A stretch of DNA of 64,000 bases. It comes from Urechis unicinctus. Lineage: Eukaryota > Annelida > Polychaeta > Xenopneusta > Urechidae. The position numbers were made by a program, and so were the translations under genes. The stretch lies in NCBI GenBank assembly GCA_034190875.2, contig CM067354.1, positions 44,145,275 through 44,209,274 on the forward strand. The letters are read 5' to 3'. Under the pieces are notes generated by a model. That model worked only from the letters and a program-made list of their open reading frames with translations. It was not told where the DNA came from and did not search any database. Below are positions 36,801 through 42,459 of this stretch, in pieces; within the stretch, counting starts at the first letter, position 1, and every line of letters begins with the position of its first letter.

Positions 36801-39800
36801 CTCACACATTTACACTTAGATCATGATTAGGGCTGTCTAATAAGAGACGAATCCTGCCTAGATATGTTCAGAAATGGAAATTTTCCACTTTTAGGTGCAA
36901 ATCCATTTGTGATAGTTTTGTGATCGTGTATGGTTTTATGGGGGAGTGGGTAGGGTTTAATGTCTGGTAATCCTGACTCTCGGAAAAGTCTCCAAAATGG
37001 ATTGTTACCTTCTGCTGCAGACCATTCAGTATTTTTTCTCAAACAGCACTCTCATCCCTTCATATTCATTACGACCTGATTCACTCGCAGCTTCTTGTCA
37101 GTTCCACTTCACTGTGGGTGGGTCATTAATGCTATGGGAACACTATGATGTCATGTACAATTGACCTTGATCATAATTCATCATGTTCAATTCTTTATCT
37201 TGGTGTGAAATATTTGTTTTGCTTATACAGGCAAAGCAATCCTGATGTCAAGGCCTTCATGGACAAGATGGGATTTGGCACAGACTATTCCAAGCTGGAA
37301 GGATACTACATGCAGAAGTAAGTTTGAATATGGCAATAGTAACATCACAGACGATCCAATCGACAACTCATCTGGTGTCAAGACCTTCAGAGCTTACCGT
37401 ACATTTAATGTTCATCGACCCACCTGTTTTTCCAACCATTCTTTTGTGTTGTTTTCTTGAGATAGTCCAAATTATCCATTTATGCCTAGGTTGTTTTGAA
37501 ACTCTGACATCAGCTCTGGTTGACAATTGCAGGCTGCCTTTGACACCAATCTCATTGAATATGCCATGTCAGGTTGAATAGTATATCAAGTTGTAATAAT
37601 TGTGTTCATGTGCTCTAGTTTGCTGAATATTGTGGGTGCCCTGAACAGTGGATACATTGTGTGGCAAGAGGTTGTTGACAATGGGGTCAAGGTCAGTCCT
37701 TCAAATGACACTTGTATGTTTCACTAAACAAATTGATAAAATGTATTTCAAACTTCTCCTTAAAATGAAAGCACAATAATGGAAGATTCTGTGGTAAAAA
37801 AGGAGATATATCCATAGAGATATTCTAAATCATAGTGACCATTTCCCCCTGATCAATATTACTCATTACCAAGACTGAGCTTTTTGAACCAATTTGAATA
37901 GTTCCCCCCCCCCCCACTCCCCACCCAATTTGCAGGGATTTTTAGAGGATGCTTTATTTTTTTGAAGGTTACTATGCATGATGTATATCAACACTAGAAA
38001 ACCTCTATTAACTAGTTTACAACAAAATTAGTAGATGTTTTTCTTTGGGATCATTTCTTTGGTTTTCAAGAAGCTATGGAAGATTATTATAGAGGTCAGT
38101 ATAAGTGTTTATTAATTGAATTATTCCATGGTATGATGAAGAACTAATGTTTCTACCCCCAAAATACACAATCCAGCAATTGATGTTAGATCAGTAATTG
38201 TGATTTTTCAATGCCTTACTGATAATTTTCTTGGTTAATCTTGAAATGGGATGAAACCACATTTCTGAGATTTTTTGAGTTCAAATCACAAATAGAAGCC
38301 ATATGTCTGACCAAGAATGTCTCCCCAGTAGGTTTTGTTTCAAGTCATCTGATTTATCGCTACTTGAAAATCTCATTGGGATAAAACAATATATTCAAAT
38401 TTAGACTTCACTACTTGTTGCTAACATTGATAACATTTTAACCTGCATCATTACCCCAAGTGTACTACCCTCTTATTATCAATTATTCTATAATAACTTG
38501 TTGTAATGGGAACAGTATATGGAAAATAACCCCTCAAATCTATATAATAAACCACCATTTTCAGATTTATAAGCAATTGAGACTTTTCCTCGCTTACTTT
38601 ATTACTGTCCTGTTTTATCTGTCCTTGAATCGGGATTGTACTAGATTTGTTTTGAATTCTTATCGTACTTACATACCATTTATCGAATTCGGAATGTCAG
38701 CAGATTTGATTTTGCATAATTTCAACTGATTTATTGCCAGGTGAATCCTGATACCATAGCCCATGTATGGAAGGGAGGTCAGGAGGCAGAGTTAGCTAAG
38801 GTCACTGCCCAAAACCTGACCGCTATCCTCTCGTCGTGCTGGTATCTCAATCGTATCACGATGGGCCCTGACTGGCACAAAGCATATGGTTGTGACCCAC
38901 ACAGTTTTAATGGTGTGTTGTGTGAATATGGTCTTGTGATGTGTGACTAAAGGTGATCTGGTGTGTTGGATGTGGAAACTTTCTTTGGTCAAACCTTCAT
39001 TTCTTACCTCTCCTCTTGGTTATGGTCTTGTATGTTGGCCCTATATATCACCCCAAACCTAACTCTTTCTCACGCTTGCAGCTGTTATAACAGTCACCTT
39101 TACAAGAAAGAATGTTCAATTCAGTAAACCCAAAAAGTAACCCATATTTGAATTCCTAAATTTATTTTCCTGCTGAGGTCTGTATGCCATTGGGATACAT
39201 TTGCTTTGAACATTCCTAATTGTGACAGGTTTATATAATTCAGGTTCTTATTTTGTTTATCAAATATGTTTTCATCGGCACTGTCCCATTTTCATCAGGT
39301 TGCCCCTGATACTGTGGTAGAGATATGGAAGAGTACTGCTAATGAGTTAGAGAAGATTACTCAGCTGGGACTTAGCACTATCTACAGCTCCTGCTGGTAC
39401 CTTAACAAAATCTCCTACGCCACTGACTGGCACCCTTACTATACTTGTGACCCACAAATGTTCAATGGTCAGTGTTTGTTGTAGTGTTGTTCAAGTTTGT
39501 TGAGTATGTTTGAAATGTGGAGTCATAAATGCAAAATTCTTGCAATATGCAACTTGAGATGTGAAATGTGGAGTTAAATGCAAAGTTAACATGGCTAAAG
39601 GTGTCACTCATACTAAAGTACCATTCATACCACCATTTGCCACAAGGGCTAGGGGCATTCCTACCTTCAGAATACATTTTACATTATTGTTCATAACAGT
39701 TCGGAAAACTACAGCTCTCCTATATTATCTTCTGCATAAATTACTGTTTTGTTGAAACAAGTTTACGCCCACAAATCCCTCTTATTAAATGGAAGTACTC

Positions 39801-41212: not shown

Positions 41213-42459
41213 GTAAGGGCAGATACAGTGGTGGAAGTGTGGAAGGGAGGTTACCAAGCCGAGATGGCTAAAGTCACGAAGATGGGCCTCAAGACCATCC
41301 TGGCTGCTCCCTGGTACCTCGACTACATCTCGTATGGCAATGATTGGAGGAAATACTACTCTGTGGAACCACTCAACTTTAATGGTACTCTATTCAGACA
41401 TCCAGGAACGATTTGTTGCTGAACAGATTCCTGGCTCACATTCAAAGTTATATATATTTTTTAATTGATGTGAGACTACCTATTACCTCAAATTAATAAA
41501 CTTGAAATATAGTTGAAATTCATGTTATCTAATCATTTACATCTTCAAGAAAATGCATCTTGAAATGGATGTCTTGTTTTGATGAGTTGCATTTTAAAGA
41601 GGTATATAACTTTGGTGAAATCTTATTGCTGTAACCTGCTGGCATGCTGTGTAATAATGAATGATGTTTGTCATGTTGTGTGTAGCTTCAATGGCCGAGA
41701 AAGCTTTGGTGATGGGGGGTGAGGCTTGTCTCTGGGCAGAGTACGTGGATGCAACCAACGTGGAGTCCCGCCTCTGGTACATCAAACAGAGTTGTAAACT
41801 TTACTGCAGTAGCTTCAATTAGTATCATAGTTAAAATGTTGAGAGGGCTATATAATTTTCCTTTTGTTATCTCTTTGAGACTTGGATCTGTCATTGATTT
41901 TAATTGCTGAAATAAGTTACATTATTCTAATAGCAGTTGCTGATTAAACGTGTCATCAGATGTTTAATGATATAACTGAGTGTATGCTATAACCACATGG
42001 TAATATGCCGATGTCTCTAGGCCTAGAGCAAGTGGTTTTGCTGAGAGGATGTGGAGTAACTCGTCAGTGAATAACTCGGTGGCTGCCACCCCGAGGATGG
42101 CTGAACACAGATGTCGAATGGTCAAGTGAGTATCCTGTCTTCAATCCAATCTCAATCTAGTTCTGATTTCCGCCTTTCTCCTTCTTTATTATGCTCTGTT
42201 CCTCTCTGATGTACCACAATTTCCCCTTTACCATCAGATTCACATCCTTGTCACTTATGATCCACATCTGCTTCTCATATGATCTACCCACCATTGACCC
42301 ATGTCATGTTATTTGTATGCTGCAAGATTTCTGTGGAGCATTTTACCAACTGATGCATTATATAACTTATACAGGCGAGGGATTTACGCCGAGCCTGACG
42401 ATGGACCCAGCTATTGTGTCACCGAGGCGGGGATGCGACGTAGACATCTCTATGATTGA
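41213..42459 (+). CDS. Hexosaminidase alternative C-terminal set, cassette C (HEXB-like)
   Basis: Four exons, 41213-41384, 41686-41776, 42021-42125 and 42375-42459, repeat the whole 3' part of the gene: [18 protein letters not shown] .. [20 protein letters not shown], then [15 protein letters not shown], then [13 protein letters not shown], then [14 protein letters not shown] and a stop. All phases match the upstream set (0/1, 1/2 and so on), so exon 37619-37691 can splice straight to 41213, giving 547 residues. The specificity pair is Asp-Tyr; human HEXB has Asp-Leu. The 540 bp between 40670 and 41213 hold no N-terminal exons or room for a promoter plus signal exon. It is therefore either an alternative terminal set or a truncated tandem duplicate. 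Confidence 0.88.

Follow-up and report, generated by a model that had tools for sequence, protein, structure and literature searches.

A hexosaminidase gene of the annelid Urechis unicinctus with three putatively alternative copies of its substrate-site exon and two sets of tail exons

Background

In vertebrates the alpha and beta subunits of hexosaminidase are encoded by two separate genes, HEXA, the Tay-Sachs gene, and HEXB, the Sandhoff gene. The human alpha subunit handles negatively charged substrates mainly via Asn423-Arg424, and the beta subunit has Asp452-Leu453 (PMC3587417, in which hybrid constructs of the human subunits are also tabulated). Here we describe a hexosaminidase gene of Urechis unicinctus which lies in a window of 64,000 nucleotides (nt; the whole stretch of DNA that was analysed, C13:44145275-44209274 within the 1.19-Gb genome; positions given below are those of the window), and in which the segment with the corresponding two residues is encoded three times, by exon copies that appear to be used as alternatives.

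The arrangement as we read it is of a known type, tandem duplicated exon substitution, of which 236 human events have been collected, 77 of the 236 being swaps of the C-terminus (PMC9741552), and the oyster AOX gene invites comparison (PMC5589949). The human events share with the locus described here the presence of homologous exons in one gene and the conservation of key residues; the Urechis locus differs in that a three-way internal choice would be nested with a multi-exon alternative 3' end, and in that its splicing is predicted from sequence. The terms hexosaminidase, HEXA, HEXB and lysosom are absent from the main text of PMC9741552. Oyster CvAOX likewise encodes an invertebrate enzyme; according to PMC5589949 its last coding exon is duplicated, with changes around the functional sites, and its 3' structure is alternative. 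In contrast to the hexosaminidase gene, however, its duplication concerns a single terminal exon whose copies are 63.5% similar in DNA, one of its mRNAs holds both copies and there is no separate internal choice; moreover, its transcripts have been shown, whereas the hexosaminidase isoforms are predicted from the genome. The mollusc comparisons are the nearest parallels found in print. A literature search of titles and the beginnings of abstracts, which covered a minority of the subscription papers and excluded isoform records in databases, yielded no title on duplicated or mutually exclusive hexosaminidase exons and is not proof of absence.

Results and discussion

Exon copies and reading frames

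The gene begins with an ATG at 33896 and not at 37619, the first position of the region given in the initial annotation, and all introns of the gene model are GT-AG. The N-terminal hexosaminidase domain and the beginning of the GH20 barrel, with the catalytic Asp-Glu pair, lie on eight common exons (e1-e8, 33896-37691); these are followed by exon copies A and B, which are adjacent, the tail set S1, copy C beyond it and the tail set S2 (Table 1). Exon e8 and the first two tail exons (73, 91 and 105 nt) have the same lengths as exons 10, 12 and 13 of human HEXA, and A, B and C are therefore called exon 11 here. As described initially, e8 (37619-37691) ends in phase 0, and the three copies starting at 38741, 39299 and 41213 are each open, with phase 0 at the beginning and phase 1 at the end, and code for one and the same GH20 segment. 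Because of these phases the frame is lost whenever an mRNA contains two copies: the combination A+B, which had already been recognised as unjoinable, meets its stop at codon 456, the combination A+C at codon 472 and B+C at codon 471, and omission of exon 11 altogether leads to a stop at codon 404. Two marks of tandem duplicated exons, homologous copies in one gene and disruption of the frame by joint inclusion or skipping, are seen at this locus. The complete tail ascribed to C was found as well, S2 ending in an in-frame stop at 42459. Among 143 ordered exon chains after e8 that were tested, 16 retain a full open reading frame (ORF). Nine of the 16 have one exon per rank: A and B can each be followed by four tail combinations, and C by S2. 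In the other seven the second tail exon is skipped or doubled.

In our judgement the locus is best explained by an exclusive choice of exon 11 together with alternative 3' ends, and it is probable that A, B and C are used alternatively from the common N-terminal exons of one gene. Each mRNA would then take exactly one of the three copies. Those with A or B would end in S1 and be polyadenylated before C, in-frame joins to S2 being possible, and those with C would leave out A, B and S1 and have S2 as their 3' end. Mis-spliced mRNAs with two copies or none would be expected to undergo nonsense-mediated decay, because any pair or skip breaks the frame. The initial annotation had proposed three subunits generated in this way. 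Anatomy, phase, the absence of N-terminal exons belonging to C and the intact state of the copies support the principle but not the exact number, since nine chains are in frame; likewise, A and B do feed into S1 in frame, as had been stated, but this path is not obligatory, joins to S2 and switches from S1 to S2 being in frame too. That more than three isoforms are made in this way, up to nine canonical proteins, all from chains with full ORFs, is nevertheless rather improbable, as C and at least one S1 exon would have to be skipped.

The interval of 542 nt between the S1 stop and C might leave room for an own start of C and S2, by an internal promoter or trans-splicing, and hence for expression of a truncated, non-catalytic product. 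We consider this very unlikely. An in-frame stop (41204) lies 9 nt upstream of C and the first in-frame ATG (41264) comes after the catalytic pair, so that C yields an active enzyme only if it is joined to upstream exons, and a product without the catalytic pair would sit oddly with the conservation of the substrate-site residues. In agreement with the initial claim that C lacks N-terminal exons of its own, no second N-terminal set was found within the window. A whole-genome search with the C-form protein from e3 onwards gave 29 matches, 14 in this gene, six and five in two paralogues on contigs C1 and C11, respectively, and four in three more distant GH20 genes; its N-terminal part was matched elsewhere only by paralogues, at best with 73% over 44 amino acids (aa) on C1 (e1 and e2 were outside the query). 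A search with the A-form tail gave 12 matches (nine here, two on C1, one on C11). More distant GH20 genes lie at C17:47250087-47252421, with long open frames, C13:15094942-15099278 and C13:44771178-44775987, and long repeats that look minisatellite-like by eye surround the C1 paralogue.

An assembly error by collapse or mis-joining of tandem genes, which the initial annotation itself had raised as a threat to its interpretation, was also considered. The window is free of N, and neither whole-genome search found a second near-identical locus. In 33500-43300, 12 direct-repeat families were listed, and the copies are not linked by any of them (copies less than about 65% alike can escape this list), which leaves nothing for an assembler to confuse; together with a protein identity of only 49-53% between the copies, this argues against a duplication introduced by assembly. 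We regard such an error as the least credible of the explanations weighed here.

Enzyme family and substrate-site residues

The A+S1 product (539 aa) matches PF00728 (E 2.5e-88) and PF14845 (E 2.5e-15). The closest solved relatives are HEXB (515 bits) and HEXA (482 bits), with 204 bits for the best chain of another protein, and by these scores the gene is of the animal, lysosomal-type HEXA/HEXB kind and not an insect or bacterial GH20 gene. All copies carry, by alignment, the motifs VW/IW, WYL and W-EY, whose Trp, Tyr and Glu we take to be substrate-site residues, and GGDEV is present in e6. At the positions aligned to alpha 423-424 copy A has Asn-Arg and thus matches HEXA, B has Asn-Lys, a conservative departure, and C has Asp-Tyr, with the Asp of HEXB. 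Judged from this alignment, the swapped exon holds the residue pair by which the alpha and beta hexosaminidases of humans differ, which adds to the initial observation; the mapping also supports the earlier suggestion that the copies confer different specificities.

Similarity scores of the alternative parts point in the same direction. With e8+A+S1 the human alpha subunit scores 189.2 bits against 180.3 for beta (1nou) and 182.8 for a beta fragment, and with e8+B+S1 the values are 193.3 against 186.8 and 189.3; e8+C+S2, on the other hand, scores 194.7 bits with beta 1nou against 178.6 with alpha. The A and B tails hence favour alpha by 4 to 9 bits over natural beta chains, and the C tail favours beta by 16 to 18 bits. 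As to the N-terminal half, which all isoforms would share, it is nearer to beta (HEXB 402.6 vs HEXA 373.4 bits). By analogy with the work on the human enzyme, the choice of exon would set a pair that accepts (alpha Asn-Arg) or repels (beta Asp-Leu) negatively charged substrates, and A and B would give alpha-like subunits and C a beta-like subunit on a common beta-like N-terminal half. A division of alpha and beta specificity between the isoforms is in our opinion a serious possibility, although not one that we would call probable.

Human HEXA and HEXB belong to the same family, have 40-60% identity over the alternative parts and show the same split into Asn-Arg and Asp. They differ in being two genes, while in Urechis the split falls between putatively alternative exons of a single gene. 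A further parallel is provided by PDB 5bro, a human beta subunit with YLNR in place of YLDL, which in the alignment has the same Asn-Arg as exon A; an alpha-type Asn-Arg on a beta-like frame is what would be predicted for isoform A. In contrast to the Urechis gene, 5bro is an altered human protein and additionally carries GSEP for RQNK, and GSEP in that form is not present in the gene of the window. We assume, partly from the construct table of PMC3587417, that 5bro was engineered to gain alpha activity.

Exon A contains Met where B, C, human HEXA and human HEXB have Tyr; this Tyr extends to the site of the partner subunit. In addition, a Cys pair (CWYL ... CD) occurs in A (38741-38912), B (39299-39467) and the paralogue on C1 (L029 6980-7138), and is absent as a pair from C, the paralogue on C11, human HEXA and human HEXB. 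It could possibly form an extra disulphide.

Divergence and selection

The three copies match each other with E values of 1e-18 to 5e-17 and are 49-53% identical at the protein level; S1 and S2 share 48 of 86 residues. Differences at the third codon position exceed the expected one third between A and C (P 0.015), B and C (P 0.004) and S1 and S2 (P 1e-4), with a weaker excess between A and B (P 0.09). In a simple neutral simulation with an assumed indel rate, C+S2 remained free of stops, indels and splice changes in 1.4% of the runs (2000) when divergence was 5% and in none of 2000 when it was 10%, and the single exons A and B survived in about 4% of the runs at 10% and in 0.1-0.25% at 20%. 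The copies therefore appear to have been kept by selection over most of the time since they arose. With human HEXB, C shares 34 of 58 residues of exon 11, A 26 of 58 and B 26 of 57, and C is thereby closer to human HEXB than to A (29/58) or B (28/57).

The two HEXA/HEXB-type paralogues each have one exon 11 and one copy per tail exon as far as found (the last exon was not found on C11), and their exon 11 is 36-45% identical to A, B and C. In trees calculated for exon 11 and for exons 12-14 with the human and paralogous sequences, no branch reached the mark for strong support. Branch lengths are mosaic, C being short and A and B longer for exon 11, and S1 short (0.18) and S2 long (0.65) for the tail. 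Such a pattern would be compatible with duplication of a block whose different parts diverged afterwards.

Splice signals and points against alternative use

Several observations weigh against the alternative use of the copies or against an alpha/beta split between them. The exon 11 tree groups A and B with the paralogue on C1 and not with C (81/85, weakly supported). This grouping is at odds with a simple duplication inside the locus, and may reflect that the copies are old, that A and B changed fast or that paralogues exchanged sequence. The paralogue on C11 has Asn-Val at the substrate site, so that Asn alone is not a clean alpha marker. Compared with the human alpha loops, GSEP is replaced by KEGKP and the IPV insertion is lacking; both alpha-type loops have been associated with the active quaternary structure that includes the GM2 activator, and A and B are for this reason considered alpha-like at the substrate site only and not classified as HEXA. 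With regard to 3' ends, the AATAAA ascribed to S1 by the initial annotation does exist, as the single one in the interval between S1 and C, but it is not significant by itself, at least one being found in 42% of 500 dinucleotide shuffles of that interval; no AATAAA was found in the 841 nt downstream of the S2 stop. The copies are intact, all open and flanked by GT-AG, but their splice sites are not uniformly good as had been claimed, those of C being ordinary to weak by approximate matrices. The C acceptor has the lowest pyrimidine fraction (0.45) among 15 acceptors (e2 excluded), although its matrix score (3.8) is higher than those of e2, e6, e8 and the second S2 exon, and the C donor is weak (1.6), similar to the donor of the constitutive e4 (1.5). 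Finally, the A-B intron is of ordinary length (386 nt) and presumably too long for steric exclusion, and intronic pairing of the docking-selector kind did not exceed chance in seven region pairs with 40 shuffles each (z -1.7 to 0.8; the best pair was matched by 4 of 40 shuffles).

For exclusion by a distant branch point, as in OGDH (PMC7969005), no sign was seen: the AG-free stretches upstream of A, B and C (35, 53 and 40 nt) are ordinary, those of the other listed exons ranging from 13 to 127 nt.

The weak donor and pyrimidine-poor acceptor of C, the missing canonical poly(A) signal of S2 and the long S2 branch (0.65 vs 0.18 for S1) would also be compatible with C and S2 being an unused relic, left over from a second tandem gene after deletion of its 5' half, with only A and/or B being spliced. 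The order of exons 11-14 followed again by exons 11-14 is what a tandem duplication that lost its second 5' half would leave behind. However, four exons that have diverged by about 50% and yet keep their frames, splice dinucleotides and active-site residues are difficult to reconcile with a relic, given that neutral survival is negligible beyond 5-10%, and C is the best conserved of the three copies with respect to human HEXB (34/58). A relic is therefore unlikely, and alternative use of all three copies remains the reading that we prefer.

Neighbourhood of the locus and remaining features

By eye, the end of the preceding gene, which has the same orientation, appears to lie near 32968, and that of a convergent open frame near 43189, and the hexosaminidase locus therefore looks closed on both sides. 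The upstream gene (31128-32968) is coiled-coil-like by eye; a 151-aa piece of it gave a single weak Pfam match over the cut-off, to a bacterial sporulation family, which is unconvincing. Short tandem direct repeats (CGTACAAGGTGAAAATGG...) are located in the first intron at 34451-34608. The acceptor of e2 scores poorly, and the start of e2 is the least certain boundary of the gene model.

Table 1. Coordinates of the hexosaminidase gene in the window and of its two closest paralogues in the genome
Feature	Position	Strand	Length and remarks
Exon e1	33896..34277	+	contains the start codon; signal peptide probable by eye; N-terminal hexosaminidase domain begins here; in-frame ORF
Exon e2	35113..35225	+	phase-consistent; 62% over 29 aa to paralogue L029
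Exon e3	35786..35896	+	111 nt
Exon e4	36028..36129	+	102 nt
Exon e5	36225..36333	+	
Exon e6	36475..36682	+	catalytic Asp-Glu pair (GGDEV)
Exon e7	37231..37317	+	87 nt
Exon e8	37619..37691	+	73 nt; donor exon shared by the copies; phase 0 at its end
Exon 11 copy A	38741..38912	+	172 nt; alpha-type Asn-Arg
Exon 11 copy B	39299..39467	+	169 nt; alpha-like Asn-Lys
S1 first exon	40122..40212	+	91 nt
S1 second exon	40418..40522	+	105 nt
S1 last exon	40604..40670	+	ends in in-frame stop
Candidate S1 poly(A) signal AATAAA	40887..40892	+	followed by GT-rich sequence; P 0.42 in shuffles
Exon 11 copy C	41213..41384	+	172 nt; beta-type Asp
S2 first exon	41686..41776	+	91 nt
S2 second exon	42021..42125	+	105 nt
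S2 last exon	42375..42459	+	ends in in-frame stop
Paralogue L029	C1:56890500-56900400		HEXA/HEXB-type; substrate-site pair Asp-Tyr
Paralogue L030	C11:4906500-4916400		HEXA/HEXB-type; substrate-site pair Asn-Val

Conclusions

We tentatively propose, with somewhat less confidence than the division of specificity as such, that Urechis unicinctus derives alpha-like subunits for charged substrates and beta-like subunits for neutral substrates from one gene, and that the ratio of homo- and heterodimers is set by splicing. As the copies differ from each other about as much as they do from human HEXB, the arrangement may be old, and splicing and gene duplication may represent two independent solutions to one specificity problem. 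If the predicted junctions are used, the specificity split of two vertebrate disease genes sits in a single alternatively spliced gene, and the isoforms would then be natural tests of which residues give alpha activity on a beta-like frame, an aim that protein engineers have pursued.

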